Source: Lepiota brunneoincarnata (taxonomy: Eukaryota; Basidiomycota; Agaricomycetes; Agaricales; Agaricaceae). Taken from it: a stretch of DNA of 64,000 nt. Position numbers and translations under genes: made by a program. Below the pieces are notes generated by a model that made no database searches, had not been told where the DNA came from, and was given only the letters and a program-made list of their open reading frames with translations. The stretch is from positions 248,001-312,000 of the forward strand of contig JAEBUN010000014.1 in NCBI GenBank assembly GCA_023014365.1, given 5' to 3'. Of the stretch, positions 8,301 to 60,800 are shown piece by piece (the stretch's first letter is position 1; every line of letters starts with the position of its first letter).

Positions 8301-9130
8301 TCGGGGATGGACGAGAGGTCAGGCGGTTCCTCGGAGACAGAAGAGGACGCGGCCGATGCGGAGGCGGCGGAAAGATTGATTCGGAATTGTTGGGAGCCAG
8401 GGAGCTTGGCAGCGCGGATAAAGGCAGGAGCGTTTATCAAGGAGATGTGCGGTTTCGCAAGGGGGACAGATTGGGACGAGGTCCCGGACAGGGGTGGTGA
8501 ACCTAGGTCAGGAGAGTCAGGGGCGGCCATAGGCGGAGCCGATGCGGGTGCGACGCAGGTAGAGACGGAAGCAGGATTCTCGAGTAGGGATGGCCGGAAA
8601 GTAATACTGCCCAAAACCCAGTCAATCAATGGATTGTAGCGGGTGAGCCAGTTGTGTCCTAAGACCACAGAACAGGAAGAGTCAAGCTGGGTGACATAAG
8701 TGTCCAAAATGATAGATTCACCGGAGGGGAAGGATACAGGCAGTTGCGCAAGCTCCGTAATGTAGGCATTTGAGGTCCCATCAAATAACCGAAGTTCAAT
8801 AGCCGGGATGGACGAGGTTGGAATACTATGAGAACAAACAAAAGAAGAGTCCACAAAACAGTGAGTAGAACCACTATCAACAAGAGCTTTGAAAGGAGAA
8901 AAAGAAGAAGAAAAGTCAGAACTAACTACATTGTCCGTTGTAGAAAGCGGGTCCGAAGCGGAGAGTACAGGAGCGGAAACAGAGGGTAACAAAGTAACTA
9001 AAGGAGAAGTTAATGTAATATGAAGAGAGTTTGGATCGGAAAGAGCAGGACGCATTGAGACGGAAACTCTCTGGAGCACAGCAGAGTTCAATGCGATCCT
9101 CAGTCTGTGCAGAGGCCTGAGGACCGCCGA
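5316..9130 (-). pseudogene. pol: Gypsy pol: protease, RT, RNase H, integrase, chromodomain (two frameshifts)
   Basis: The minus-strand frame continues directly from gag after one TAG at 9131-9133. The protease shows DSGSTHCFVD and the downstream VLGHNWL. RT shows KKKDGSLRLCVDFR, the motif-A region near 7930, PFGLTNAPATFQ and YLDD. A one-base excess near 7608-7620 shifts into a second frame ([21 protein letters not shown]). A second one near 7419-7427 shifts into the last frame, which holds RNase H (ETDASDYA, HDKELLAIF, TDHKNLKYF), integrase (H..H..CVTC finger, MDFIEKLP, TSDRGSEF, DGQTERTNQ) and a C-terminal chromodomain (YKIARIVDSK...LYKVIWLGY). In motif A the usual KIDLR reads KINLR, replacing a catalytic metal-binding Asp. 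The polyprotein would reverse transcribe and integrate the element; this copy cannot. Confidence 0.9.
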
Positions 9131-10537
9131 CTATTTTTCCGAGCTCGGGAGAGCCGGTGCGTCTGTCTCGGAAATCTGAGCCTGTCGGCCTTTAGCCTTG
9201 GCGTCAGGGAATTTCTTCTTGTCGCAGTTGGCAGCCCTGTGATTGGGATCTGCGCAGACAAGGCAGAGGTTATTGTCGAAACGTCGTTGACGTTCCTCGG
9301 GGGTTAATTTACCGTCCTTACCAAGTTTACTAGTAAGGTCGGACTTTGGCGGGGCCGATTTCTGACCGGCAGACGGGTTGGGCGGATTGCCCTTGAAGAT
9401 GTTATTACTGGGGGTGCTGCCTTTGTTGTTACTGTTGGCAGGCTTGGCGGCAGGTTGATGGTTTGTCGCGGTGGAAGGGGATGGGTTGCCTCCAGGTTTC
9501 CTAGAGGCGGTCGGGTCCGAAGTGGCTTTGGCGCGGGCCTTCTCGCGTTGGCATTCCCAGTAGCGAGCATCGATCTTCATCACTGCTGCTCGCATTTCGA
9601 TGAAGGTGTCGGGCTTGCCGTCGGGCCGATTGGACAGAATGTCCTGGATGCGGTCGGGGAGGCCTTTGTAGTAGCGGTGACAGAATACCTCATCACCCCA
9701 GCGGAGTTGGCCGGCCAGACGGAGAAAGTTGACGTTGTAGACGGCGATCTTTTCGTCATAGCGCATTCGGAGGGAGTCAAGCTGCTCAGCAGCTTCTCCG
9801 GTCGGATCCGCGGGACCAAAATTGGTCTGCAGTTCCAGGGTGAACTGATCCCAGTCCTCGATCCAATCGTGCATTATTCCGTGGTTGTCGGCCTCGTCGA
9901 GGCCGATTTCGAAGTGTTGCTGGGCCACGCCGGTAAGGTACGTCAACGCAAAGTTGACCTTGGTGGCAGGGATAGCGAACTGGGCCGGGTTAGTACGGAA
10001 GTAGAGTCGACATTGGAAGAGGAAAGGTTTGAGTTTGGTGGGGTCGGAACCTGTAAAGATGTCAGGTTCGCGAGCCTTGGTACGGGGGGTTCGGGGAGGC
10101 TGTGGGGGTTGAGAGTTCCCACGGCCGTCCATTTGATCGGCTATTCGTTGGAAAACTCGGAGCAGGAGTTGGTCATGGTCATTTTGGGTGTTGCCAGGCG
10201 GAATGTTGTTATTGTTGTCGTTGTTGTCTGACGGTTCATCGTCGTCCGGGGGTCCGTCCCCATTGTCAGGGTAGTCGTCGGGATCACCAGGGTCGCTGGG
10301 ATCGGGATTTGGGTCAGGGCCACCGTCGGGGCCGTCGGGAGTCTGGAATAGTGAAGGTTGAATATCTTCACTGAACCGGTCTGGAGTTGAGGGCACGATG
10401 GATTGTTGGCGAGGGGGAGAAACCCTCGGGGGGTCGGGTTGTAATTCCTCGGAAGGAGATTGTCGAATGATGCGTTTGCTACGGCGAGCGGCTGGAGTTA
10501 CCCGAGTGCGGGGACGGGTGACTGTTCGAGAGACCAT
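9131..10537 (-). CDS. gag: Gypsy Gag with CCHC zinc knuckle
   Basis: An uninterrupted 468-codon frame starting at the ATG at 10537, the first after the 5' LTR. An acidic, Asp/Pro/Asn-rich N-terminal part (residues about 40-130) precedes the Retrotrans_gag-type capsid domain (residues about 165-320; DIFTGSDPTKLKPFLFQC, FALTYLTGVAQQHF, FCHRYYKGLPDRI). A basic Ser/Thr/Asn linker leads to one zinc knuckle, CLVCADPNHRAANC, near residue 435. The frame ends in a single TAG, beyond which the same frame stays open into protease, so Gag-Pol may be made by stop-codon readthrough. Gag assembles the cytoplasmic particle and binds element RNA. This is the only fully open coding region of the element. Confidence 0.92.
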   Translation of the reverse strand: MVSRTVTRPRTRVTPAARRSKRIIRQSPSEELQPDPPRVSPPRQQSIVPSTPDRFSEDIQPSLFQTPDGPDGGPDPNPDPSDPGDPDDYPDNGDGPPDDDEPSDNNDNNNNIPPGNTQNDHDQLLLRVFQRIADQMDGRGNSQPPQPPRTPRTKAREPDIFTGSDPTKLKPFLFQCRLYFRTNPAQFAIPATKVNFALTYLTGVAQQHFEIGLDEADNHGIMHDWIEDWDQFTLELQTNFGPADPTGEAAEQLDSLRMRYDEKIAVYNVNFLRLAGQLRWGDEVFCHRYYKGLPDRIQDILSNRPDGKPDTFIEMRAAVMKIDARYWECQREKARAKATSDPTASRKPGGNPSPSTATNHQPAAKPANSNNKGSTPSNNIFKGNPPNPSAGQKSAPPKSDLTSKLGKDGKLTPEERQRRFDNNLCLVCADPNHRAANCDKKKFPDAKAKGRQAQISETDAPALPSSEK

Positions 10538-10590
10538 GGTTAGAAAGGATTAGAGTGTAATGGACAGGAGGAGTTTGAGTCTGATAATAC

Positions 10591-20646: not shown

Positions 20647-21662
20647 ATGAAGCCATTATCTTCTACTCTAAAGAAAACTATCCTCTCTATGCTAAATTCT
20701 CATCATTCCTATACTAAAATTCAGGCAATTACTGGTGTTGGGTGCAGTACCATGTCCAGACTAGCCTCTAAAAATTGTTCCAGCCTTACCAAATCACTTG
20801 GAGGACCTCCTTCAAAACTCTCTACTACTAATATCTGGTATACTATCCATCTTATCTCTGTTGGCAAGGCTGAAACTGCTGTAGATATAGCCAAATCTCT
20901 TACTCCCATCATTGGGACATCAGTCTCTTCACAGACTGTGGCAAGGCATCTCAAACAGGCAGGAATGAAGGCTGTATTCAAGCAACAAAAGCCTTTACTC
21001 TCTGACAAGCATAGGAGAGCTAGACTGGATTTTGCTCTGACACACCAGCATTGGACTGTGGAGGATTGGAAGCTGGTTGGATAGTCTGATGAGACCAAAA
21101 TCAATTATTTGGAGTCAGATGGGAGGAAGTGGGCATGGAAAAAGAAGGGAGAGGGGCTCAGTGAAAGATTGGTTAAGGAATCTCTAAAGTATGGAGGAGG
21201 ATCAGCAATGGTTTGGGGCTGTATGCTGTGGGATGGCCTAGGCTATGCTATGAGGATTGATGGAAGGATGGATGCAGAGTTGTCTGTGCAAATTTTGGAG
21301 GAGGATTTGAAGAAGAGTCTCTAGTGATACAAGCTTAAACCCTGAGATATCATCTTTTAGCAAGATAATGATCCCAAACACAAGAGTATATTGGCCAAAA
21401 AATAGTTCAAAAAAATCATTTTAGGCTCCTAACCTGGCCAGCACAGTCACCTGACCTCAATCCCATTGAACACTTATGGGATTATGTGAAGAAAAAGCTG
21501 GGAGAGTATAAATCTCCTCCCAAGGGTATAGAGGAGTTGTGGCAGAGGGTAGAGAAGGAGTGGGATGCTATTCCAGCTTCTGAGTGTCAGAAGTTAATTA
21601 AAAGTATGCCTAGAAGAGTAGCAGTTGTCCTCAAAGCCAAGGGGGACTACTCTAAGTACTAG
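20647..21662 (+). pseudogene. Tc1 transposase (DD34E) with multiple stops
   Basis: Starts at the ATG at 20647 with an N-terminal helix-turn-helix region (YTKIQAITGVGCSTMSRL, then VSSQTVARHLKQAG). The first catalytic Asp lies in SDETKIN, just after a TAG (21082-21084) that replaces the usual Trp. The second Asp is in QDNDPKH and the Glu in SPDLNPIEHLW. Counting through a frameshift gives 34 residues between the last two, the DD34E pattern. Further stops lie at 21322-21327 and before QDNDPKH, and a 7-A run causes a one-base shift. The intended end is the SKY-stop at 21660-21662. The protein would cut and paste the element at TA sites. It is inactive here, and most of the same lesions occur in copy 2. 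Confidence 0.88.
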
Positions 21663-30289: not shown

Positions 30290-31760
30290 GCGGCGGGGCC
30301 CTGCCGAATTAAAGCATAGATGCTATAGCCCATGGAAGCCAACATGTCCTACTCCCTTGGCCGTAATAGCAAGGCTCGGACATGGGTCATTCAACAAGCG
30401 AAGCAATTGCCTACGCGTCGTACGATAAAAAGAAAAGTAGTCGACTCCAGTGTAAGGCGATTGGAAGGCGTGACAGAAACCGAGGCGTCGGTGCTAGCGC
30501 TGCATGCTAACGACCGGACAGAGGAAAGATGATGGGAACAACACCATAAATCAATTTTCCCGAGGTGAGCTGGAGCTACTTGTGAAAGATCGGCGAATTA
30601 TCGATGTCATGCGAGAGAGGGTGGGCAGCGAGGAGAATGCGTTTCCAACGGTCCGAAGTAATACCTGCTGGATGCTCCCGTTCTACCGTAAATGGAGGGG
30701 CCTGTGCCCCATTCGAGGCGCTAAATGCCGAAATCGGGTGAAGCACCCAAGTCCAGCTGTATTCGAGACCTCCATCAGACTACAGAGAAGCGAGTCGGAC
30801 TCGCGCCCTCCATAAAAAACGGGACTCACGTCATATCCTACACTATGGCTCGACGTCAATTTGGGGAGTAGCACTTCCGGACATGTACCTAGGCCCTCGG
30901 TGAAGGAAAAGAGGATCGGTTGAGAGATACGACTGTGAGGATGATGGTGAAAGAGCAAATCCAAGATGAGAGCCTACTGACCTATGACGTGGTATTATGT
31001 TTCCATGTCGGAGATGGGAACACTGGTCCTGAGAGTTGGCGGGTGAATGGGCTCGGCGGAGGCTTATTGCATAGTGGAAGCAGCAAAAGCAATGATCGAT
31101 GAGCGCTGAGCTAGTCCACTCCAGACAAGTCGTGGAGCAATCACGCACACGTATGTACATGTAAGACGCAGTGCTCCCCGTAGATAGAGCCACGGGTCTG
31201 GGTCCGGGTGGCATGAAAAGGACCCGCGCTCCTAATCGTGAGCGTCTGGCGCTCAACAGGAGGATGACAACGGCAATGCCTCTACTGCACGTGCATTCTT
31301 GGGTGAGCATATGAGTCGCGAAGACAACGCATGTCCAGGTATCTTCGTGAAACCACTACGGCGGTTTATGGACAGAAGGGTGACTTCAGGTAATGCGTTG
31401 GTTGTCGCGTATCACATGACCGTTATGGATCATCGATCATCGATCCAGTCGCGCCCGAATTGAACAGGAATCGTGATTCTCACGGTCCATTGTACTCTGC
31501 TCAATGCACACCAAGTAATCGTGGGTGCCTTCCATCCGTCAATGTTCAAGCAGCGATGGTCAGGCTTGCGGTTCATAGACAATGCCCGCTGGGGATTCTG
31601 CATCCTTAGTGTTAGCAAACATTACACACCGCCCCTCAGCGTTATCAGTGCTGTGCATGGTTACCAATATAGAATATGTCGGGTTCAATGGGAAACTAAC
31701 CTTACCTTTTTCGTTGAAGACGTGCACGCCTCGTGCCACCCCCAGGCTTCCATACACAGC
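30290..31760. repeat. Diverged segmental duplication, unit 3 (upstream region of the microexon gene)
   Basis: 30330-30545 matches 24500-24730 and 28050-28265 (GGCGTGACAGAAACC and GACCGGACAGAGGAAAGATG). 31265-31670 matches 28560-28990. Between the units (26420-27470, 29480-30290) I see no recognisable genes. Confidence 0.55.
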
Positions 31761-31831
31761 CGGACTGTTCGCTTCTTGTCTCCCTCTCAAACCTTCACCC
31801 CCACCATCATTATCTACAGTATCGTTCAACA

Positions 31832-34800
31832 ATGGCTACCGACTCAACCCCCTTCCGTTTCTCAAGGGTTTTTGCTATTCGTCGAATTTCACCGAATACT
31901 ACTGAGAGACCCCCCTCGACAATCCGTAAATACTTATCGAAATGGCTGCCCATACCCAAGTCGGATTCCAAGCGCATCACTTCTGGTGCTCAAGAGCCAA
32001 GTGCCCCCGACGATTATGACTCCCGCGGGTCTCGAGTCCGTGAATATACCACCGTCGCACTCACTACGGTGCTACCTATCACCGAAGCCATCCCAGTTGC
32101 GGGGCCTCCCTTGAAAGCAGCCATCGGCGGCTTGCTAGCAGCCCTCCAAATTATCGACGTGAGTTCTGATGGTTCCCAATTGTCTAGATTGACCAAGAAA
32201 CTAATCCCAATTTTTAGCGAATCGATCGGAACAACCGAGATGCCAAGATTCTCGAGACGAGGCTCCGTCGGCTGAACGAACATCTCGCCGCCGTTCCAGG
32301 TGTCTCCTCCCAGGAACTCAATGTCCTTCGCGACGGTTTAACTGCGTACGTCCATAGAGTCTCACCATCTACATACCCCCTAATAATCGTAGTAAACTGA
32401 ACGAAACCTTGGCAACCCTGAAGGAATTGGGGATGAAGCGAAAGGTCCGATACGCAACTATTGCACAGGTGATTCGCCAATGCTCTGAAGAAATCACGTT
32501 TTATATGTCGGAGTGTACCGTAAGGGCTTTTCTGCGAATCCAGATCGAGAATATTATTCTGAAAACACTTGTCCGCCAGCTCGTGAGTAACATGTATATC
32601 GCAGCGAATATCGAGGTGTTTGCCCCTCCGGCACCACGACCCGCAGCTGGTTGGGCAACGGGAATCACCTTGGTGGACGCAACCCGGAAGGAGTGGCCAT
32701 TGCCTGCATTCCTTGCGGTGTCGCACGAGGTATGTGTTCAAGGTGTATCAATGGACTCGGGTGGCCTGGTGATTCGCTGACCGGATTGAAACAGGTCTTT
32801 TTGGGGGCCATTTCCGCACTCATGAAAACGGACAAATTGGAAGTACGTGTGCAGCGGCCATATGTGGAAAGGGGCATGTATGACCTCTGCATCGACGAGG
32901 GTGGTAAGGTTGTCCCAATTACGGGAGAGAGTGATTGGCCCAGGGTTCAGCCCGGGACAAGGATTGTCATGAGTGCAATTCTTGTGCGGCGACAATTCAC
33001 TGGCAATAAAAGGTATAAATGTCCCCGGTGCAAGGCCTGGAATGATGCTGGTGGCTATGAAGGTGTATCAATTGACTGGTAAGTCCAATTACCTCCTTGG
33101 TATTGATTTTAAAACAATAGATTATGTTTTAGCAAGAAATGTGATGGTCGGTTCCAGATGTCAGAAGCAGATACTGCACCAGGGCAGAGAATAAGCTATC
33201 AATCTAATATAGGGGATACTCAAGATATAGGCCTATTGCAAAACATCCACCTAAAACAAGTTGTAAGTAGCTGGCCAAATTGAGTAATTGCAATGATTGA
33301 CATTTTGACTTTGATGAATTTTACTCTATTTCTATTTTAGCTAGTAGGTTTTGCATTTTTTGTCAGCTAGACTTGAAACACTGATCTTGTCTGTCTTCAT
33401 TTTCACCTCTCAGGAGGTGGGTTCTCCAGTTTGTGACCTGTGTTTGAAACACTGACCTTGTCTGTCTCCATTTTCACCTCTCAGAGAGTGGGTTCTCCAG
33501 TTTGTGACCTGTGTTTGAAACACTGACCTTGTCTGTCTTCACTTTCACCTCTCAGGAGGTGGGTTCTCCAGTTTGTGACCTGTGTTTGAAACACTGACCT
33601 TGTCTGTCTTCACTTTCACCTCTCAGGAGGTGGGTTCTCCAGTTTGTGACCTGTGTTTGAAACACTGACCTTGTCTGTCTCCATTTTCACCTCTCAGAGA
33701 GTGGGTTCTCCAGTTTGTGACCTGTGTTTGAGACACTGACCTTGTCTGTCTTCACTTTCACCTCTCAGGAGGTGGGTTCTCCAGTTTGTGACCTGTGTTT
33801 GAAACACTGACCTTGTCTGTCTCCATTTTCACCTCTCAGAGAGTGGGTTCTCCAGTTTGTGACCTGTGTTTGAAACACTGACCTTGTCTGTCTTCACTTT
33901 CACCTCTCAGCTTGTGGGTTCTCCAGTTTGTGACCTGTGCTTGAAACACTGACCTTGTCTGTCTTCACTTTCACCTCTCAGCTTGTGGGTTCTCCAGTTT
34001 GTGACCTGTGTTTGAAACACTGACCTTGTCTGTCTTCACTTTCACCTCTCAGTCGGTGGGTTCTCCAGTTTGTGACCTGTGTTTGAAACACTGACCTTGT
34101 CTGTCTCCATTTTCACCTCTCAGAGAGTGGGTTCTCCAGTTTGTGACCTGTGTTTGAAACACTGACCTTGTCTGTCTTCACTTTCACCTCTCAGCTTGTG
34201 GGTTCTCCAGTTTGTGACCTGTGTTTGAAACACTGACCTTGTCTGTCTTCACTTTCACCTCTCAGGAGGTGGGTTCTCCAGTTTGTGACCTGTGCTTGAA
34301 ACACTGACCTTGTCTGTCTTCACTTTCACCTCTCAGCTTGTGGGTTCTCCAGTTTGTGACCTGTGTTTGAAACACTGACCTTGTCTGTCTCCACTCTCAC
34401 CTCTCAGAGAGTGGGTTCTCCAGTTTGTGACCTGTGTTTGAAACACTGACCTTGTCTGTCTCCATTTTCACCTCTCAGAGAGTGGGTTCTCCAGTTTGTG
34501 ACCTGTGTTTGAAACACTGACCTTGTCTGTCTCCATTTTCACCTCTCAGAGAGTGGGTTCTCCAGTTTGTGACCTGTGTTTGAAACACTGACCTTGTCTG
34601 TCTTCACTTTCACCTCTCAGCTTGTGGGTTCTCCAGTTTGTGACCTGTGCTTGAAACACTGACCTTGTCTGTCTTCACTTTCACCTCTCAGCTTGTGGGT
34701 TCTCCAGTTTGTGACCTGTGTTTGAAACACTGACCTTGTCTGTCTTCACTTTCACCTCTCAGGAGGTGGGTTCTCCAGTTTGTGACCTGTGTTTGAAACA

Positions 34801-36798
34801 CTGACCTTGTCTGTCTCCATTTTCACCTCTCAGAGAGTGGGTTCTCCAGTTTGTGACCTGTGTTTGAAACACTGACCTTGTCTGTCTTCACTTTCACCTC
34901 TCAGGAGGTGGGTTCTCCAGTTTGTGACCTGTGTTTGAAACACTGACCTTGTCTGTCTTCACTTTCACCTCTCAGCTTGTGGGTTCTCCAGTTTGTGACC
35001 TGTGCTTGAAACACTGACCTTGTCTGTCTTCACTTTCACCTCTCAGCTTGTGGGTTCTCCAGTTTGTGACCTGTGTTTGAAACACTGACCTTGTCTGTCT
35101 TCACTTTCACCTCTCAGTCGGTGGGTTCTCCAGTTTGTGACCTGTGTTTGAAACACTGACCTTGTCTGTCTTCACTTTCACCTCTCAGGAGGTGGGTTCT
35201 CCAGTTTGTGACCTGTGTTTGAAACACTGACCTTGTCTGTCTTCACTTTCACCTCTCAGCTTGTGGGTTCTCCAGTTTGTGACCTGTGCTTGAAACACTG
35301 ACCTTGTCTGTCTTCACTTTCACCTCTCAGCTTGTGGGTTCTCCAGTTTGTGACCTGTGTTTGAAACACTGACCTTGTCTGTCTTCACTTTCACCTCTCA
35401 GTCGGTGGGTTCTCCAGTTTGTGACCTGTGTTTGAAACACTGACCTTGTCTGTCTTCACTTTCACCTCTCAGGAGGTGGGTTCTCCAGTTTGTGACCTGT
35501 GTTTGAAACACTGACCTTGTCTGTCTTCACTTTCACCTCTCAGCTTGTGGGTTCTCCAGTTTGTGACCTGTGCTTGAAACACTGACCTTGTCTGTCTTCA
35601 CTTTCACCTCTCAGCTTGTGGGTTCTCCAGTTTGTGACCTGTGTTTGAAACACTGACCTTGTCTGTCTTCACTTTCACCTCTCAGTCGGTGGGTTCTCCA
35701 GTTTGTGACCTGTGTTTGAAACACTGACCTTGTCTGTCTTCACTTTCACCTCTCAGGAGGTGGGTTCTCCAGTTTGTGACCTGTGTTTGAAACACTGACC
35801 TTGTCTGTCTTCACTTTCACCTCTCAGCTTGTGGGTTCTCCAGTTTGTGACCTGTGCTTGAAACACTGACCTTGTCTGTCTTCACTTTCACCTCTCAGCT
35901 TGTGGGTTCTCCAGTTTGTGACCTGTGTTTGAAACACTGACCTTGTCTGTCTCCACTCTCACCCCTCAGGAGGTGGGTTCTCCAATTTGTGTCTTGTGTT
36001 TAAAATACTGACCCTGTCTGTCTCCACTCTCACCCCTCAGTTGGTGGGTTCTCCAGTTTGTGTCTTGTGTTTAAAATACTGACCTTGTCTATCTTCATTC
36101 TCACTCCTTAGAGAGTAGGTTCTCCAATTTCATATTCTGCACTTGAAATACTAACCTAGCTTATATATATCTTTATTTTCTAGAGGGTGGGTGCTTTAGT
36201 CTTGTGGGCTATTTTCTAATCACTGGGTTTATATCACCTCTTATTTTTCAGGAGGTCAGTCCTTCAACTATATGTGAAGCATTGATACATCCATCTTCTA
36301 CCATCATTTTTAGGATGTTAGTATTTATTGGTCTACTCAATCAACAACTGCTGACCTTTTTTCATCCCTTTGCCCTGCAGGAAGTTTGTATCCTTATGTT
36401 AATGCTATCTAGCTAACCTTTCTAACACCTATTTTTTATTTCTAGAATGTATTTGGTTCTTTCCCATCACTTTATATGGATGCTTACCTATTTTGTTTTT
36501 TATGCCACTCTCCAGAAGGTTTGTATCTTCATTCTGTTTATTGTCTATGGTATTGATCATATTTCTGTGTCTTAGGAGGTATCAATACATCTCACCATTA
36601 CCCCCAAGAGATATTGATTTTCCTTGCCATTTATTCTATAGTTTGTGAGTAATGTTCTTCCCTTAACAAATATTTATGTTCACAGGTAATTGGCTCCCCT
36701 AGGTTGTGAGTAAACATGCTATTCAAAATACTGTACCTTGTGCTGGTTTTATCTGATGACAATTCTTTCTACAGCCTCCCTGGTACTTTGATGACTGA
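31832..36798 (+). CDS. Helical/ULD_2-like/zinc-ribbon protein with a tail encoded by about 49 three-nucleotide microexons
   Basis: Ordinary exons are 31832-32158, 32218-32345, 32393-32729, 32795-33078 and 33133-33262, 402 codons with all phases matching. Residues about 70-200 are helical (PLKAAIGGLLAALQII, LRRLNEHL), like the N-termini of fungal immune-type proteins. Residues about 250-360 (LVDATRKEWPLPAFLAV, GMYDLCIDEG, PGTRIVMSAILV) resemble the basidiomycete ULD_2 ubiquitin-like domain. A zinc ribbon follows, CPRC...CKKC, its second half completed by splicing. After 33262 the gene continues as exons of exactly 3 nt: 33341, then every 71 bp from 33414 to 36112, then 36184, 36252, 36314, 36381, 36446, 36516, 36576, 36642 and 36703. 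The terminal exon 36775-36798 (PPWYFDD, TGA) is in phase. The tail would be about 49 residues, mainly Leu, Glu, Arg and Ser. An alternative 20-nt exon at 36686-36705 shifts the end to a TAG just downstream. Start context aacaATGG. The domain assignment is from memory. Function unknown. Confidence 0.8.
33414..36114 (+). repeat. 71-bp tandem array of intron plus 3-nt exon, 39 triplets
   Basis: Thirty-nine triplets lie exactly 71 bp apart, each following CACCTCTCAG (or a close variant) and preceding GTGGGTTCTCC (GTAGGT at the last). Each spacer has a branch-point-like ACACTGACC, a pyrimidine-rich tract and a final AG. The triplets are GAG (11), AGA (9), CTT (14), TCG (4) and TTG (1). Around 34905-35830 the order GAG, CTT, CTT, TCG repeats, giving a 284-bp higher-order unit. 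Substitutions within the spacer are few and go with the triplet type; for example, spacers before AGA mostly read CTCCATTTTC. Confidence 0.95.
36112..36774 (+). other. Non-repetitive continuation of the 3-nt exon series
   Basis: Past the array the spacers are no longer copies of each other, yet each begins GT and ends in a pyrimidine-rich AG. They are 69, 65, 59, 64, 62, 67, 57, 63, 58 and 69 nt long. The triplets between them are AGA, AGG, GAG, GAT, GAA, AAT, AAG, GAG, TTT and GTT. Donors include GTAGGT, GTGGGT, GTCAGT, GTTAGT and GTGAGT. Branch-like CTAAC, CTGAC or CTTAC motifs occur in several. Confidence 0.85.
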
Positions 36799-37202
36799 GC
36801 AATAGTTGGCAACCAGGCAGTGGCAAGATGGACAAGGTAAGTACCAGAGCAGTTTACCAGTCAGGCTTTGTAGAGCTAATTGAGCAGAACATTCCAAAGG
36901 GCAACAGAATTCTTTCAATTTTTTCATGGGAGGTTTTCAGAAATAGGTGGAAATACAACCAATAGCACATTTTGTTCTGTAAAGTGAATGGTGTACAGGT
37001 GTATATGTAACAGCTTCTCAAAGTCTTCATGCATAAGAGACATATACTATCCAGAGTATACAAGAGACTGAGACTAGCATATGTGTGTGAAGCCATCCTC
37101 TAGGTCTAGTCAACCACATCAACCATTCATGTTCATCCTTCGTCATTATCATCATCATTAGCAACAGCACCATTACAGGTCAACTATAAATCTTTAAACA
37201 TT
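36799..37202. other. Intergenic region between two convergent genes
   Basis: No gene recognised; presumably holds both 3' ends. Confidence 0.5.
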
Positions 37203-38736
37203 TTACAAGGCATTAGTCATTAACGCAGACCCAATCCACCCCAGAAGTTTAAGAAACCCAAATATACACCCTCCCAAAACAATTGGCAGTGTCAGGTTAT
37301 CATCCAACAACCCAAGATCTAGAAGAAATACAACACCCCATCAACATGAGGCTCCAAGGACTAATACAAAACAAACTCACCCATTGCTTCTGCAACACCA
37401 CTAACCAACCCCGCAACAACACCCAACACACCCAACCCCACCCACCCCTTCACGAATCCACCCCCACTCAACCCTACGCCATTGTTACTGCCGGTACTAC
37501 CTATCTGCACACCCTCATCCCATGCCCAGCTCAACTCATGACCACCTAACCTAATCAGAGCAACAGTAGACCAGAAGCCAACAGCAATAAGTGTGCCCAT
37601 GATGCTGGCTGCTACAAACCCCACTAATGACTTGCATGGTGTGAGTGGAATGTGGAGGAAGGGGAGGCAGAAGGGGAGATGAGGGGAGGAAGGGCCACAG
37701 AGACAGCTGATTGTGGATGTGGCTGTGTCAGCCCAGGAGAGGCTGTATTTAGGGAGAGGAGGGGTGAGTTAGGTATGTTTGAAAAGGAACAAATGTGTAC
37801 TCACATGAGGATAGTGATGGTCGCAATGTCCCAAGGGTAGAATTAGAAAGCAAAGTTGACACCAAGGATGTACCATATCACACCGTTTGTGGAGTTCTAT
37901 GAGGCATGCATGCATGTTAGTTTATTATAATTTATTTTATTTTATGGTTAATGATGGGGGGAGGGGAGAGCAGGATGGGTGGGGGATGCACAAACACACA
38001 CCTTTTCACTATTGTGCATAAGAAACCCCATGGCGCACTTGTACAGCCTCTCAAAAGCAGGCCAGCAGAAATGGAGAATGTCAGCAGGGACAATGATGCA
38101 TAGAGCCAACCAGAGCACAAGCACAATTTTGGAGACATCACCTTCAGAGATGTAGAGATACAGTGTCACAAAGCTCATACATATAACACACATGCCCTCA
38201 GTAAACAAAGAAAAAAAAAACCCTAAGTGGGAATTTGGAAGCAAAGGAAAAAACAGACCGATAGAGCTGTGTAGCAGTTTTCTTGGGATCTCCCAATCAA
38301 TTTTTGGTGGTGGAGTGGTGGTGGTGCCATTTACATGACCATTCACAGACTTTAGGATGGTGGAAGTAGTTGTGTTGTCATGCTCAATGAGGTCCCATTT
38401 GACCTTGTGTTTGCCATCACTGACATTGGATGAAGGGGTGTCTGTGTCATCCTCGGGTGTGATGAGGTAGAGATTGACCATTTCTATGTGGCCAAAGCCC
38501 TCAAGTCTCCTGATGACCTTTTGTGTAATATTATGGACACCGCTCTTGTCTGAGGAAGGGAGGGGAGTAGGTGAGAAGGTGACAACAGGTGAATGGGAGG
38601 GACAGCAACAGCGTGGAGGGATGGACTGGAGATGAGTTAGGGGGCTTGGTGACTTGGTGGTATTCAGGGCAGCTGACATTTGAGTGGTTGTGTGCATGCC
38701 AGCAGAATGGACAACCACAGCATTGAGGGGATTCAA
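37203..38736 (-). pseudogene. DGK1: CTP-dependent diacylglycerol kinase-like gene, decayed
   Basis: Minus-strand exons are about 38002-38736, 37805-37896, 37381-37742 and 37203-37318, with introns of 105, 62 and 62 nt whose phases join. Hallmarks are KIDWEIPRKLLHSSIG, FVTLYLYISEG, LVLWLALCIIVPADIL, NSTNGVIWYILGVNF, ILILSWADTATST, SLVGFVAAS and LLDDNLTLPIVLGG, as in Dgk1-type ER or nuclear-envelope kinases that make phosphatidate from diacylglycerol with CTP. An in-frame TAA at 37843-37845 interrupts the membrane segment. Twenty-nine extra residues after HSSIG look like an unspliced 87-nt intron that no longer leaves in frame by GT-AG rules. Several expected Arg positions after SWADTATST read Cys or Ser. 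The start (ATG at 38736) and the N-terminal 60 residues are unsupported by motifs. A functional copy is expected elsewhere in the genome. Confidence 0.75.
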
Positions 38737-41043: not shown

Positions 41044-42563
41044 GAATATTTCTAAACATAGCAAAATATGTTGTATCTGACCCTGCAAAGTCGCGTTATG
41101 TAATACTTTTAACTTAGGTAATTATGAATTTTGTAAGCATTTTAAGTCATTGGAACAGTTTTGTCAATGACATATTATACCAGGCCATCCTATTATTCTA
41201 GTACTTAGAGTAGTCCCCCTTGGCTTTGAGGACAACTGCTACTCTTCTAGGCATACTTTTAATTAACTTCTGACACTCAGAAGCTGGAATAGCATCCCAC
41301 TCCTTCTCTACCCTCTGCCACAACTCCTCTATACCCTTGGGAGGAGATTTATACTCTCCCAGCTTTCTCTTCACATAATCCCATAAGTGTTCAATGGGAT
41401 TGAGGTCAGGTGACTGTGCTGGCCAGGTTAGGAACCTAAAATGATTTTTTTGAACTATCTTTTGGCCAATATACTCTTGTGTTTGGGATCATTATCTTGC
41501 TAAAAGATGATATCTCAGGGTTTAAGCTTGTACCACTAGAGACTCTTCTTCAAATCCTCCTCCAAAATTTGCACAGACAACTCTGCATCCATCCTTCCAT
41601 CAATCCTCATAGCATAGCCTAGGCCATCCCACAGCATACAGCCCCAAACCATTGCTGATCCTCCTCCATACTTTAGAGATTCCTTAACCAATCTTTCACT
41701 GAGCCCCTCTCCCTTCTTTTTCCATGCCCACTTCCTCCCATCTGACCCCAAATGATTGATTTTGGTCTCATCAGACTATCCAACCAGCTTCCAATCCTCC
41801 ACAGTCCAATGCTGGTGTGTCAGAGCAAAATCCAGTCTAGCTCTCCTATGCTTGTCAGAGAGTAAAGGCTTTTGTTGCTTGAATACAGCCTTCATTCCTG
41901 CCTGTTTGAGATGCCTTGCCACAGTCTGTGAAGAGACTGATGTCCCAATGATGGGAGTAAGAGATTTGGCTATATCTACAGCAGTTTCAGCCTTGCCAAC
42001 AGAGATAAGATGGATAGTATACCAGATATTAGTAGTAGAGAGTTTTGAAGGAGGTCCTCCAAGTGATTTGGTAAGGCTGGAACAATTTTTAGAGGCTAGT
42101 CTGGACATGGTACTGCACCCAACACCAGTAATTGCCTGAATTTTAGTATAGGAATGATGAGAATTTAGCATAGAGAGGATAGTTTTCTTTAGAGTAGAAG
42201 ATAATGGCTTCATGATAAGTGGGGGGGTTGAGAATGATGGGACATGGCTGTCAGCACATCTATTTATATGTCAAAGACACATGGTCACATAATCTTATTG
42301 ATTCACAATCAATGGAATTATGTGATTGCTTGGATTAGTATCAAAAATCACCATTGACAAAACTGTTCCAATGACTTAAAATGCTTTACAAAATTCATGA
42401 TTACCTCATTTGGAAGTATTACATAACGCGACTTTGCAGGGTCAGATATGACATATTTGGCTATGTATATAAATACTTTCACAAATTTAGCCATTTTATT
42501 TATTGAGCTATTACTACTTTAAGTCAAAAGTACAAAACATTGGAACAGTTTTGTGGGTCACTG
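41044..42563 (-). mobile_element. Tc1/mariner element, copy 2 (inverted, truncated at one end)
   Basis: Near-identical to 20297-21901 in reverse orientation. The 42563 end is complete and followed by TA; at the 41044 end about 84 bp of terminal repeat is missing. It lies inside the 30-bp minisatellite of the hAT element. Confidence 0.92.
41198..42213 (-). pseudogene. Tc1 transposase of copy 2, multiple stops
   Basis: The first 145 codons (42213 down to 41776) are identical in translation to copy 1, ending at the same TAG in place of Trp before SDETKIN. Downstream stops and the 7-A frameshift are also shared. One position differs usefully: copy 1 has a TGA where this copy still has TGG for Trp after the TAG at the end of the KKSL stretch. 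DD34E motifs are as in copy 1. Inactive. Confidence 0.88.
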
Positions 42564-42935
42564 TACCCTGGCTCCACATTGACTTGTAAATTGATATCCT
42601 GGCCCTTGTTGACTCATAAATTGATGCCCTGGCTCCACGTTGACTCGTCAATTGATACCCTGGCCCTTGTTGACTTGTAAATTGATACCTTGGCTCCATG
42701 TTGACTTGTAAATTGATACCCTGGCCCTCATTGACTTGTAAATTGATACCCTGGCTCCACATTGACTTGTAAATTGATACTTTGGCTCCACATTGACTTG
42801 TAAATTGATACCCTGGCTCTCATTGACTTGTAAATTGATGCTCTGGCTCCATGTTGACTCACAAATTGATACTATGGCTCTATGTTGACTCATAATCAAT
42901 ACTATGGCCTCTTTGACTTGTATGGCTCCACATTG
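42564..42935 (+). repeat. About 30-bp minisatellite, roughly 12 copies
   Basis: The unit is CCTGGCTCCACATTGACTTG plus TAAATTGATA, 29-32 bp with variants. Three degraded copies lie on the other side of the Tc1 insertion (about 40945-41043), so the Tc1 landed inside the array. Confidence 0.85.
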
Positions 42936-55969: not shown

Positions 55970-56403
55970 AAAGACAAAGCTACTTGTTGCCTCTTTTCTC
56001 TCTTCTTGCCCTCCTTGGTTTGCACAGTACCGTTAACTGTGAGGTCTAGACAGAACCGTAATCTGTTGAGGATCATCACTTGTCTATTCGAGCAGTCTGA
56101 CACGGTCCTCACCCCGAAGAACTCTGGCTGTTGTTCTTCTGAACCTTCGCACCCCAGCATCTCTATAGGTTCTTGGATTCCTTGTTTGTCTTGTCGAACG
56201 TCTTAGTGGATCTTAAATTCTCGGAGGTTCCTCTTTACCAGAAAAGACATTGTTGCCCATCACGGGTAGTTATTTCAAAGCCAGGACAGACCATCCTAAC
56301 TCTCGCATTTCCCAAACTGGTTCTGGATCTCCAGGACCCTCTCAACCATCTGTTACCCCACGTGCCATTCCATCTACTCCTTTGCCCTACTCCTTCTTTT
56401 TGC

Positions 56404-57773
56404 ATGCCTTCATCTTCTCCTGAGTCCGACCAACCCATATATGCAACCCCGCCCAAACCAGTGGATACCACCCTTCAGGTAGCCACCCAGATTACTGAAC
56501 CATCACCTGTTGAACCACCCCGACTCCCCTTTGGTCTGCTAGAAGCAACCACAAATACAGGAGGTCCCTTGCGCTTTCCCATCCATCAGATCAAACCCAG
56601 ACAATACCAACTTCCCCGAAATCTACAACCCTTTCCACCACCCTCTCCTCCCTCTGAACCCATGTCTGAGACTATGGGAGACCTGCTGGCTAACCAGCCA
56701 CTGTCAGGACCACCTGGAGGACCACCTGGAGGCCCACCAGGACTGCCCGGACTGCCACAAGGTCCACCCCGACCACCATCACCACAACCGCAGCACAATG
56801 GCTACAAAGAATTATTGTTCGAAAAACCAACACCATTCGACAGCAACCGCAAGAATTTCCAGGAATTCATTAACTCCGTAGCACTCTACCTTTATGGTAA
56901 CGCCGACATCTATAACACCAACGACAAGAAAATCATATTCTTCTTATCCTTGCTTAAAACCGGTGAAGCCAGTAACTGGAAGAACCAGTACTTTCAGTTG
57001 AAGCAAATTTGGGGAGAGTTCACCCCCGGAACATACAATGAACTTGTTGAAGAGTTCACCGAAGCATTCTCACCTGTCGACATCCCATCCCAAGCATTCC
57101 ACGACCTTAACACCCTCCACCAAGGATCCCGTAATGTCGAAGACGTCATCGCAGAGTTCAAGACTCTCGTCCACTGTTCAGGACTCCACAAAGATCACGC
57201 CCTCATAGAGAAGTTCCAAAATGTCATCAATCGGAACCTCGCTTACAAAATCCTCACCGATCTGAACCTGCCCAATACCATAAACGAATGGTACCACTGC
57301 GCTATCCAGATCAACCACAACTGGCACACACTTCTACAATCCTTGGACCGCATCCAGGATTCCATCCACGCCCCGCTCCTGTTAATAACTACTGCCGTGT
57401 GCAGCAACCATATCGCTGACAACAACAACAATCATCCTATACTGGACCGAACTGCCATTACCAATTCCGCCCATCGTGTGATCCGAATGCTATGGAGATC
57501 AACAATATGTACCTTAACGAAGGTCCCAAATATTACCCTTCTTGTAATATCCCTGGTGATCCACACCCTGATCAGGAAGAAGCTGAAGAAGACCAACTGG
57601 ATCATTTCCCCCACAATGACGACATTGATATCAACACCATCTTTACACCCGAAGAGAAATGCGCCTACAAGAATGGCTTGTGTTTCCGTTGCTTCAAACC
57701 CGGTCACATTTCCCGCATCTGCCCTAACATCGCCCAACCACAACCAAAGATTGATAAAGCAACCAACATATGA
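56404..57773 (+). pseudogene. gag: Gypsy Gag (second element), one frameshift and one TGA
   Basis: I chose the ATG at 56404 because the text upstream is not Gag-like. A Pro-rich N-terminus with a GPPGGPPGGPPG run leads into the capsid domain (FDSNRKNFQEFINSVALYL, FFLSLLKTGEASNWKNQY, FHDLNTLHQGSRNVEDV). A one-base change near 57370 shifts the frame. After a TGA near 57418 the second frame carries the CCHC zinc knuckle CFRCFKPGHISRIC and stops at 57771-57773. The protein would form the particle and bind element RNA; this copy is broken. Confidence 0.85.
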
Positions 57774-57844
57774 AACACCTCCCTTAAAATCCGTTCTATC
57801 ATCAAATCTATTCCTGAAACCGAAGCCATTGAAGTCTATGAGAC

Positions 57845-60800
57845 TTGGTCCAAAGACCTGACTATGCAACCATTCGCAAATTTTTGATTCAGAGGTTCTG
57901 TTTGACACCAGCCCCTCCCAGTTCCCCTCTCTCTTGTAATGTTGTAACTCTCACATCTACTTCAAACAATAAATCCATATATCTTCCTTTAAAGGTGCAG
58001 AGCCTGAGAGAACAAAAAGACGTCCCGCTTATTGCCCTCCTTGACTCCGGAGCTCAAGGAAACTTCATATCAGATGACTTCATCACCGAACATTGTTTAT
58101 GGAAGCAAGAACTTCCCTGAGCAATTAACATGCATAATTTCAATGGATTGAACAATCTAAACAGAATGATTACCCATTATTCTACCTTCCACATGATAAT
58201 TGATGGTCGATTAACTCCCATCACTGCCTACGTCACAGCAACAGGATCGAAACCAATGGTCCTTGGTTTCCCGTGGCTTATTGAAGTCAACCCAAAAATC
58301 GATTGGAAACGCCATACATTTCAATGGAGAAAAGAGAAGAAGTGCAACCACCATCCCAAGTACTTAACATACAACAACCATCTGATTGATATCGCTACTC
58401 TCGCCATGGACCAACTAAATGCATTCAACCCTGAAGGAAAGTTTTCCTATACTCCACACAAACCAATCTATGAACCTCTCCTCGATGAGGACTACGAAGA
58501 GTTCTCTCTAGAATCCGAGATGCGTCAGATCATTAGTATGCCCACTGAACTCACTCACATCAAACTTGAGATCAACTGAACTAGCCAGGCTACAGAACTT
58601 GCGATTAAACACGGAGACAAAAAGATTGATGACCCCACCATTAAGGTTCCCTGCCGATTCCACCAATGGTTGAGTCGTTTCAGCAAGAAGGCTGCTGAAC
58701 AATTCCCTCCCCGACGATCTTATGACCACGCTATCGAATTAAAGCCCAAATTCAAACCCGTCACAATGAAAGCTTACAAGCTTTCCCCAAACCAAGATAA
58801 CTCTTTGAAAGAGTTTATTTCTGAAAACCTCTGTAAAGGTTACATCCACCTGTCAAAATCCCCGATGGCATCCCCGTTCTTCTTTGTCGACAAGAAGGAT
58901 GGCTCACTCCGCCCCTGTCAAGATTACCGCTATGTCAATAAGCATACAGTCAAGAACACATACCGAATCCCGATGGTTACTGAGATTATGGATAAGCTCA
59001 AAGGAGCCCGTATATTTTCCAAACTCGATGTCCATGCTGGATACAACAACATTCGCATCAAGAAAGGAGACAAATGGAAAGGTGCATTCAACACCCTGCT
59101 TGGACTATTTGAACTGACTGTCATGTTCTTTGGAATGTGCAACTCCCCCACAACCTTCCAGGCATTTATGGACGATATCTTAGTGTCCCCGATCCGCAAA
59201 GGAGGAATCGTCGTTTACATGGATGACATACTCATATTTGCTTGCAACCAGGAAGAACACGACCGCATTATGGAAGAAGTTCTCAAGTGTTTGGCCCAGA
59301 ACAACATCTATCTCAAAACTGAGAAATGCGAATTCTACCACGACCATATGGAATACCTTGGCATGATCATCACACCCGATAAAATCAAAATGAACCCTGT
59401 CAAACTAGCTGGAATTGCCCAATGGCCCATACCAAAATGTACCAAAGATGTCCGAAATTTTATAGGATTCTGCAACTTCTACTGGAAATTTATCCACAGC
59501 TATTCCACTATCACCCAACCCCTTAATGCCCTTATGTCGACCAAATGACTATTCAAGTGGACTGATGAATGCCGCGACTCATTTGATGCTTTGAAACTTC
59601 AGTTCTCAAAGCAACCCATGCTTACAATGCCTGATCAATCGAAACCATTCGAAATCGAATGTGACGCTTCAAAATATGCTACCAGAGCTGTACTTTATCA
59701 AACCAACATTAATAATCAACGCCACCCCATGGCTTTCCTATCAAAAACCCTTACGCCTGCCAAACAAAATTACGATATTCACAACCACAAGTTACTCGCC
59801 ATTATCCATGCCCTTGGTGAATGGCGTCATTATCTGGAAGGAGGACCCTTCCCTGTGAAAGTTCATACCGATCACCAAAATCTTACTTATTGGAAGAAAC
59901 CGCAGGATATAAACTGGTGCCAGGCCTGCTGGCATCAATTCCTCTCCTGCTTTAATCTCCAGATCAAGCATGTACCTGGTACAAAAATACCCACTGCCGA
60001 CGCTCTCTCCCAACGTCCCGACCATATCCCTGACAAAGATGAAGACAACAAATCCGTAACAGTATTACCCAAGACCATATTCGTCAACACCATTGACCAA
60101 GAAACCTGTGACAATATACTTCATCATAACAATTACAACCCACATACCACTGAACAGATTACCGCTCTCATGACCGCCCCATACATTCCAACAGACTCCT
60201 GATATTCTGTAACTTGAACCCCAAAAGGTTTAATTGTTACCCATGATGGAAGAACCATCCCACTGGAAAACCTCGAACTCTGCTGACGTATCATATGGAA
60301 ATATCATAATTCCCCCACCGCAGGTCACCCCGGCATTGATATGACCCTTCACGCATTGGAGCATGATTTCTACTGGCCTGGTATGGCCTACCCAAATGTA
60401 TCATATCCGACCACAACCCACGCTTCACTGCGCATTCATTCCAGAAACTGTTAGAACAACTTGAAATAACCCCTGCAATGACCACAGCCTACCACCCTGA
60501 AGCAGATGGAGCAACTGAATGATCGCATCAGGAGACCCAAGCATATCTTTCCATTTTCTGCTCGCATCACCCTGAAAATTGGTCACAGGCCCTCCCTCTC
60601 CTCAAGTTTGCATACAATAGCTGACCGCACGCTTTATGAAAACAAACACTGTTCGAAATCATTATGGGAATACAACCGAAGGCACTTCCCACTGTTCTCC
60701 TTGAAACCGAATCCCCCACTGTCAACAACCACATGGAACTAATTGATTTATACCGTCGAAACGCTAAAACCGCACACAAAGCCGCCATGAAACACATGGA

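Follow-up and report, generated by a model that had tools for sequence, protein, structure and literature searches.

The 64,000-nucleotide (nt) stretch of DNA analyzed here, called the window, covers C8:248001-312000 of the agaric fungus Lepiota brunneoincarnata, whose genome comprises 55.6 Mb in 95 contigs; C8 denotes contig JAEBUN010000014.1. Positions 31832 to 36798 of its forward (+) strand contain a gene that is predicted to continue, after five ordinary exons, through about 49 exons of a single codon each into a short terminal exon. All features of the gene lie on the + strand, and positions are those of the window unless a contig or locus is named. The ordinary exons are exon 1 (31832..32158, 327 nt, ATG start), exon 2 (32218..32345, 128 nt), exon 3 (32393..32729, 337 nt), in which a match to the ULD_2 domain begins, exon 4 (32795..33078, 284 nt), which holds the bulk of this match and, by eye, a first CxxC, and exon 5 (33133..33262, 130 nt), which holds a second CxxC by eye and ends in phase 0 with ...NIHLKQV. 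The first Cys of the second CxxC is divided between exons 4 and 5, as seen by eye. Joined together, the five exons give 1206 nt, or 402 sense codons with phase 0 at the end.

A search for chained junctions, begun at the 33263 donor and followed up to the acceptor that precedes 36775, returned 49 triplets and 50 GT...AG spacers of 57-78 nt. The first array intron (33263..33340, 78 nt) is followed by the first single-codon exon, CTA (33341..33343), as placed by the chain search; it reads CCA in three other copies of the gene on C8 and CAA in a diverged copy on another contig, C5. The 71-bp array that follows (33344..36111) consists of near-identical 68-nt introns, the first of them 70 nt, alternating with 3-nt exons, and its triplets are mostly GAG, AGA, CTT and TCG. 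The 3' edge (36112..36774) contains ten introns of 57-69 nt, the last seven of which have no detectable similarity to the repeat or to one another, with the triplets AGA AGG GAG GAT GAA AAT AAG GAG TTT GTT in order. The terminal exon CCTCCCTGGTACTTTGATGACTGA (36775..36798, 24 nt) encodes PPWYFDD and a stop, and all 24 of its bases are the same in the C5 copy. The triplets translate into LEREERERLLSRLELRRRLLERELLSELLSELLSELLELRREDENKEFV, a 49-residue peptide without a stop that runs in phase 0 into the terminal exon, and the predicted tail starts LEREERERLLSRLELRRR. The predicted exon total is 55, of which 49 are micro-exons in one run; the 24-nt terminal coding exon is not counted as a micro-exon.

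A preliminary description of this DNA had proposed five exons with 402 codons ending in phase 0, about 49 triplets in the form AG-NNN-GT with spacers of 57-78 nt, splice signals in the spacers, and a terminal PPWYFDD exon in phase 0. The coordinates, phases and chain agree with that proposal, and the signals are present. All 50 spacers are of the form GT...AG. A YTRAY branch-like site was found in 13 of the 14 edge spacers, where pyrimidines make up 60-85% of the 20 bases preceding the AG. With GT...AG ends, a branch site, a pyrimidine tract and the constraint on these elements found in the C5 comparison below, the spacers have the properties of U2-type spliceosomal introns. No open reading frame (ORF) of at least 90 amino acids starting with ATG, GTG or TTG was present on either strand of 33263-36774, and retention of one array intron leads to a stop after 12 codons (VGSPVCDLCLKH). 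A GTAAGT donor-like site lies after the predicted stop (36837 onward), also in the C5 copy, and possibly belongs to an intron of the 3' untranslated region.

Some junctions can be read in more than one way. One edge triplet is either GAA at 36381 or TTT at 36385, with 3 nt in both readings, and an incidental AG-TAG-GT, with which the chain in 36110-36800 can start, is an alternative to the AGA junction with equal chain length. The proposal that every internal array exon has 3 nt is supported by the chain of 49, with an ambiguity at the last triplet. An earlier acceptor, CACAG (36685), follows a TTAAC branch-like site in spacer 36645-36702. If this acceptor were used, a 41-nt intron and an alternative 20-nt penultimate exon (36686..36705) would result, with the ending VIGSPRFLPGTLMTEQ stop. 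The last triplet, GTT, may belong to this 20-nt exon, and the single-codon exons would then number 48 instead of 49. The 41-nt intron is shorter than the shortest ordinary intron of the gene (47 nt), and this option also departs from the pattern of the other exons. Both endings (acceptor 36685 or 36702) are open in the C5 copy too, by eye.

The 402-amino-acid protein matched ULD_2 (PF22893) at residues 242-327 with 29.7 bits, compared with a gathering cut-off of 24.5, and a CxxC...CxxC pattern was seen in it by eye. ULD_2 was the only Pfam family above cut-off in this protein, with no NACHT or WD40. No Pfam match to a HeLo or HeLo-like domain was obtained in the 402-amino-acid protein up to E 1, nor in P0001 and exons 1 and 3 up to E 10. 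The best hit among solved structures had E 0.06 and was not a credible match. The homologue check suggested in the preliminary description was fruitful for the ULD_2-like part: Agrocybe chaxingu NLJ89_g6905 (38% identity) was the sole homologue among 7999 candidates scored. Its annotated tail was not comparable; the similarity stops at HLKQ, after which the annotation continues as an acidic low-complexity stretch.

Four near-identical copies of the gene, including the window copy, start at C8:176592, 279832, 374713 and 473468, about 95-103 kb apart. They sit in larger duplicated segments, and a 2-kb probe from the flank has matches at several places on C8, among them sites that lie about 15 kb past two of the other three copies. 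The tail has 49 triplets in the window copy, 34 in copy L009 and 23 in copy L011, and copy L010 has a nominal chain of 26. The window copy is the sole C8 copy intact over the five ordinary exons: L009 has three single-base insertions in exon 3, L010 has one single-base insertion in exon 1, and L011 has a TGA in exon 1. A search for one array 22-mer in viral contigs gave no match.

More distant relatives were also found. A relic on C25 (L013 3790-4110) has 72% identity and, by eye, keeps ATA and AGA between AG and GT; it has no gene body and adjoins sequence like the upstream region of the gene (by eye). On C1 there is a distant paralogue in which inspection by eye shows a GTAAGT donor one codon beyond HLKQ. 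In the region of this paralogue (L058), the ULD_2 locus at C1:592688 (L061), L063, L064 and L013, 3-nt chains did not exceed 4, which is the background level; these loci were scanned and no genome-wide chain scan was made. Repeated stretches lie downstream of the C1 paralogue (L058 2955-3790), and we presume that they resemble an HSF-type oligomerisation segment.

In 33373-36130 a 71-bp unit is repeated in tandem 38.8 times. Because the core is a tandem array, most of its triplets are not independent evidence of exons. The independent evidence consists of the 3' edge, the diverged paralogue and the variability of the triplets. At the 3' edge, spacers 36115, 36187 and 36255 had z scores of 5.2, 2.5 and 2.3 against the repeat consensus, and the seven spacers from 36317 on had z scores between -1.3 and 1.3. 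Compared pairwise, the edge spacers never had a z score above 2.5. The chance level of chains was measured by 2000 dinucleotide shuffles per region. A chain of 10 junctions was found in 36110-36800, where the shuffles reached at most 4 (in 2 of 2000), and a chain of 7 junctions in 36312-36800, where the maximum was again 4 (in 1 of 2000). Elsewhere in the window, on both strands of 1-33000 and 37001-64000, 3-nt chains reached no more than 4 at spacers of 50-80 nt and 5 at spacers of 45-85 nt. The 3'-edge chain is not due to chance.

Exon sizes of 7, 10 and 12 nt also chain within the repeat (44, 36 and 7) and reach only 4, 1 and 1 in 36112-36800; the chaining of these sizes is a by-product of the repeat period. 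Body-anchored junctions were obtained by locating the units via their intron bodies and then reading the triplet length. The length was 3 nt in 38 of 38 such junctions in the window, 23 of 23 in L009 and 12 of 12 in L011. A structured RNA element was also considered. No Rfam match at the gathering threshold was found in 31000-38000. The unit RNA (33417-35972) has less structure than shuffled versions of it: 199 of 200 shuffles fold at least as well for one unit and 200 of 200 for two units. This speaks against such an element, and this candidate was dropped.

The C5 copy (locus L012) carries stops, an exon 1 deletion and two insertions in the array, the insertions being seen by eye. C>T (57) and G>A (48) are overrepresented among its coding differences, counted in codons without gaps (together 105 of 180). 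The units of this copy were placed by intron body only, with AG and GT unused. This gave 23 anchors and 22 neighbouring pairs; two pairs split by insertions were excluded, and 20 were compared. The triplets had exactly 3 nt in all 20 compared junctions. GT was changed in 0 of 40 bases and AG in 1 of 40, compared with 178 of 1252 in the spacer bodies (p 1.4e-4). The five columns of the branch-site stretch CTGAC had 1, 0, 10, 0 and 1 changes, and all 10 in the middle column were G to A, which CTRAC permits.

A second AG-TTT-GT shortly downstream of the donor in each unit served as an in-unit control. The main AG-NNN-GT was intact in 19 of 20 C5 units, compared with 11 of 20 for this look-alike (p 0.008). 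The 3' edge behaved in the same direction: GT and AG had 0 changes in 40 bases, compared with 59 of 589 in spacer bodies (p 0.025), and four insertions or deletions fell in spacers and none in triplets. These constraints go back to a time before or during the decay of the C5 copy, so they show what selection favoured in that lineage.

Diversity among the repeats was counted in regular 68-nt GT...AG units, with the older 3'-edge units excluded. Mean diversity, computed over 35 core units from the window, came to 0.689 for the triplet and to 0.016 for the spacer. Of all 71 columns, those of the triplet ranked as the three most variable in each of the arrays of the window, L009 and L011, and also when the four C8 arrays (69 units) were pooled. 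The pooled ranking corresponds to 1 in 57,155 if columns are exchangeable. In 116 of the 213 pairings of window core units whose 68-nt spacers are identical, the triplets differed (84 by three bases and 32 by two), and one identical spacer precedes five different triplets (GAG, CTT, TTT, TCG and AGA). Adjacent triplets were equal in 9 of 34 cases, compared with 9.2 in shuffles, and in 7 of 19, compared with 7.4. Series such as GAG CTT CTT TCG recur as higher-order repeats, which indicates tandem duplication. Neutral mutation of a satellite is not expected to saturate three bases with 68 staying alike; homogenisation of introns combined with selection on codons can do so.

The constraint and the variability strongly favour, short of proof, the interpretation of the triplets as exons. 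It is likely that the triplets are true spliceosomal single-codon exons, about 49 in number and spliced in sequence, which would give this agaric gene a C-terminal tail that varies codon by codon. The preference of the preliminary description for exons over a satellite is thus sustained by the C5 constraint on GT, AG and triplet length, by the loss of the look-alike site and by diversity at exactly three bases. The core is best read as a coding minisatellite whose repeat is 96% intron. Since each core unit would be one U2-type intron plus one codon, duplication or deletion of a whole unit would add or remove a whole codon and keep the frame. The tail length and the codon content vary among the copies. 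The 71-bp minisatellite, the three near copies and the broken one in the same genome, and the ambiguity of the last triplet are additions to the preliminary description.

Several observations weigh against the single-codon exons. The exon status of the triplets is a prediction from genomic sequence. Relative to the C5 copy, the 3'-edge triplets (6 of 30 bases changed, p 0.12) and the terminal exon (0 of 24, p 0.15) did not differ significantly from spacers, and the C5 copy is a pseudogene in which 1 of 20 compared acceptors is lost. In L010, 4 of 15 body-anchored junctions are irregular (4, 2, 2 and 1 nt) in a stretch that is also rich in spacer insertions and deletions; one further, unparsed junction reads as 3 nt, and the irregular junctions may be due to sequencing error or decay. 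Taken alone, L010 (6 regular units) does not have the triplet columns as its three most diverse. Given how many distinct triplets occur, the absence of stops among them carries little weight. The tail residues had no helical periodicity (p 0.96, 0.36 and 0.78), so that a tail in the form of an amphipathic helix was unsupported by this test; for strand-like alternation, p was 0.47 in the window, 0.02 in L009 and 0.06 in L011. Wholesale skipping of the near-identical introns is possible, and the frame would stay open then too. The annotated Agrocybe protein has no comparable tail, the C1 paralogue region (L058) has no such array, and all three other C8 copies carry lesions.

The chief uncertainty concerns whether the gene still functions. 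In a decaying or silent family, the single-codon exons would have been real in an ancestor, and the gene would now lie in a duplicated, transposon-rich region where the array expanded without function. This is the main rival because all three near copies have frame lesions and one of them has irregular junctions. The stops and the C>T and G>A excess of the C5 copy (105 of 180) and the long retroelement-like ORFs of the window (by eye) point in the same direction. They are opposed by the window copy, which is intact across 402 codons, and by the triplet diversity of the recently homogenised core, which fits selection and not drift. The nonsynonymous to synonymous codon differences from the window copy also speak against decay: they were 4:6 in L009, 9:8 in L010 and 13:5 in L011 (plus one stop), 26:19 in total, with codons containing gaps excluded. 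L009 and L010 together gave 13:14 (p 0.007 against an assumed neutral share of 0.72), and L011 taken alone looks neutral. On this evidence, a decaying or silent family is considered unlikely.

A satellite within one long intron is somewhat more doubtful still. The interval 33263-36774 would then be removed as a 3.5-kb intron, or the transcript would end early, and AG-NNN-GT would be a by-product of the repeat. The tandem nature of the core agrees with this, 33262 can be joined to 36775 in frame (HLKQVPPWYFDD), and translation that continues into the first spacer meets a stop after VSSWPN. Such a satellite does not account for the regularity that persists through seven spacers without detectable similarity, nor for the resistance of AG, GT and triplet length to change in the C5 copy, where the spacers and the look-alike site changed. 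It also leaves unexplained why the diversity is limited to the three bases that AG and GT enclose.

Mobile introns (introners) inserted at every codon of an existing exon, with old coding triplets and young spacers, are very improbable. Identical spacers with different triplets are the outcome expected of insertion. The introner hallmark is near-identical introns in unrelated genes; here at least 112 matches to the 68-nt spacer were counted in the genome, and every one belongs to the C5 array or to one of the four C8 arrays of a single gene family. Equal neighbouring triplets stay at the shuffle level, which gives no sign of a 3-bp target duplication (3 bp being the only size examined), and the higher-order repeats show tandem duplication. 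Introner spread was ruled out as the leading explanation by the family-restricted matches and the lack of a 3-bp target duplication. An assembly artefact, in which poor polishing of near-identical copies creates repeats and triplet differences, is suggested by the clustered insertions and deletions of L010 and by four near-identical copies on one contig at intervals of about 95-103 kb, and is scarcely credible given the regular window junctions (38 of 38), triplet variants that differ by two or three bases behind identical spacers, and the same design in the C5 copy on another contig.

If the triplets are single-codon exons, intron definition would apply, in which the splicing machinery recognises each short intron as one unit. 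A 3-nt exon could hardly have both its splice sites occupied simultaneously, and the introns would be removed sequentially, with the next donor brought to the end of an exon of normal size at every step. Concerted evolution would homogenise the introns, and selection for residue diversity would keep the codons different, a mode known from the repeat domains of non-self recognition proteins in fungi. Because every exon has 3 nt in phase 0, skipping of any subset would keep the frame, and isoform diversity is possible. Each triplet would be the exon side of the next donor, and its inclusion might depend on the codon. AG is the usual exon end before GT; GAG resembles it, and CTT and AGA do not. 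Our guess for the function of the tail is a binding surface, variable in length and sequence, on a ULD_2/zinc-ribbon protein. It can be proposed only tentatively that this coding minisatellite of introns is a codon-by-codon diversity generator, with one variable codon per unit, unequal exchange, concerted introns, diversifying selection, possible skipping isoforms and perhaps a role in non-self recognition.

The closest likeness is to the micro-exon genes (MEGs) of flatworms. As described in the cited sections, MEGs of Schistosoma and Hymenolepis have runs of small exons divisible by three, skipping of which can alter as little as one amino acid; some copies have grown by tandem duplication, and the genes are hard to annotate (PMC10526429, PMC7653826). 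MEG exons are given there mostly as 15 bp, with a range of 6-81 bp (3-81 in the abstract) and introns of 0.1 to 5 kb (PMC10526429, PMC7653826). The operational definition in section 25 of one paper asks for micro-exons below 70 nt and divisible by three, at least 7 exons, half or more of them micro-exons, and a run of at least 4 (PMC7653826). With 49 of 55 predicted exons of 3 nt, the gene falls within this definition in size and run, as a prediction from the DNA. Serial small exons divisible by three and tandem duplication appear to be shared with MEGs, as far as these sections describe them. The array exons here would differ in being uniformly 3 nt, with mostly near-identical introns of 57-78 nt and in a fungus, and MEG proteins are described as secreted. 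The predicted serial exons thus resemble those of flatworm MEGs, with uniform minimal exons and near-identical short introns in a fungus.

Isolated tiny exons are reported in the cited portions of other papers, including a 3-bp exon of Drosophila homothorax (PMC7392893), three microexons of human RPS24 (PMC12686416, PMC11162997) and 1-nt plant exons (PMC8831610). In these reports, exons of 1-3 nt are spliced by the ordinary machinery, as is predicted here; they number one to three per gene there, compared with dozens in a repeat-derived series. The preliminary description knew of no fungal gene of this kind, and serial 3-nt exons in fungi were likewise absent from the titles and abstract openings of the open-licence PubMed Central matches listed.

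Likeness in the mode of evolution was found with the Podospora het-d and het-e genes (HNWD), for which the cited text describes near-identical repeats within and between loci, variable repeat number, few diversifying codons and pseudogenes inactivated by repeat-induced point mutation (PMC1805685). Concerted repeats with hypervariable codon positions are common to both, and the likeness concerns the mode of evolution only. The conserved part of the repeat is a WD40 blade there and an intron here, and Pfam found neither NACHT nor WD40 in the present protein. Tandem duplication across a splice boundary, known to make new introns, is alike in mechanism; one intron is made in that case, and here the unit is an intron plus a codon, present dozens of times. 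Near-identical stwintrons and related introns, many per genome, are described in the cited parts of work on Hypoxylaceae fungi (PMC8469720, PMC9024468). The presence of many near-identical introns in one genome is shared with them; the intron here is confined to one gene family and repeated inside each gene.

If true, dozens of serial single-codon exons would be an extreme test of splice-site pairing: none of them would reach the size needed for exon definition, and the donors and acceptors of more than 30 near-identical introns would have to be paired in the correct sequence. They would also reveal a design for variable protein segments, under which splicing discards the repeat and leaves just the variable codon in the message. 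Ordinary annotation probably overlooks genes of this type, so further examples may exist elsewhere.

Other features of the window were recorded. Long ORFs at 5316-10549 (-) and 56143-59548 (+) are Ty3/gypsy-type-like, with gag, reverse transcriptase and integrase motifs seen by eye. The same 145-amino-acid transposase-like ORF, which we take to be Tc1/mariner-like, occurs twice in opposite orientation flanking the gene, at 20647-21084 (+) and 41776-42213 (-). For part of a neighbouring ORF, the best named matches were CTP-dependent diacylglycerol kinase-like proteins of Macrolepiota and Leucocoprinus with 45-47% identity. A 31-bp minisatellite of about 10.7 copies is located at 42564-42908.

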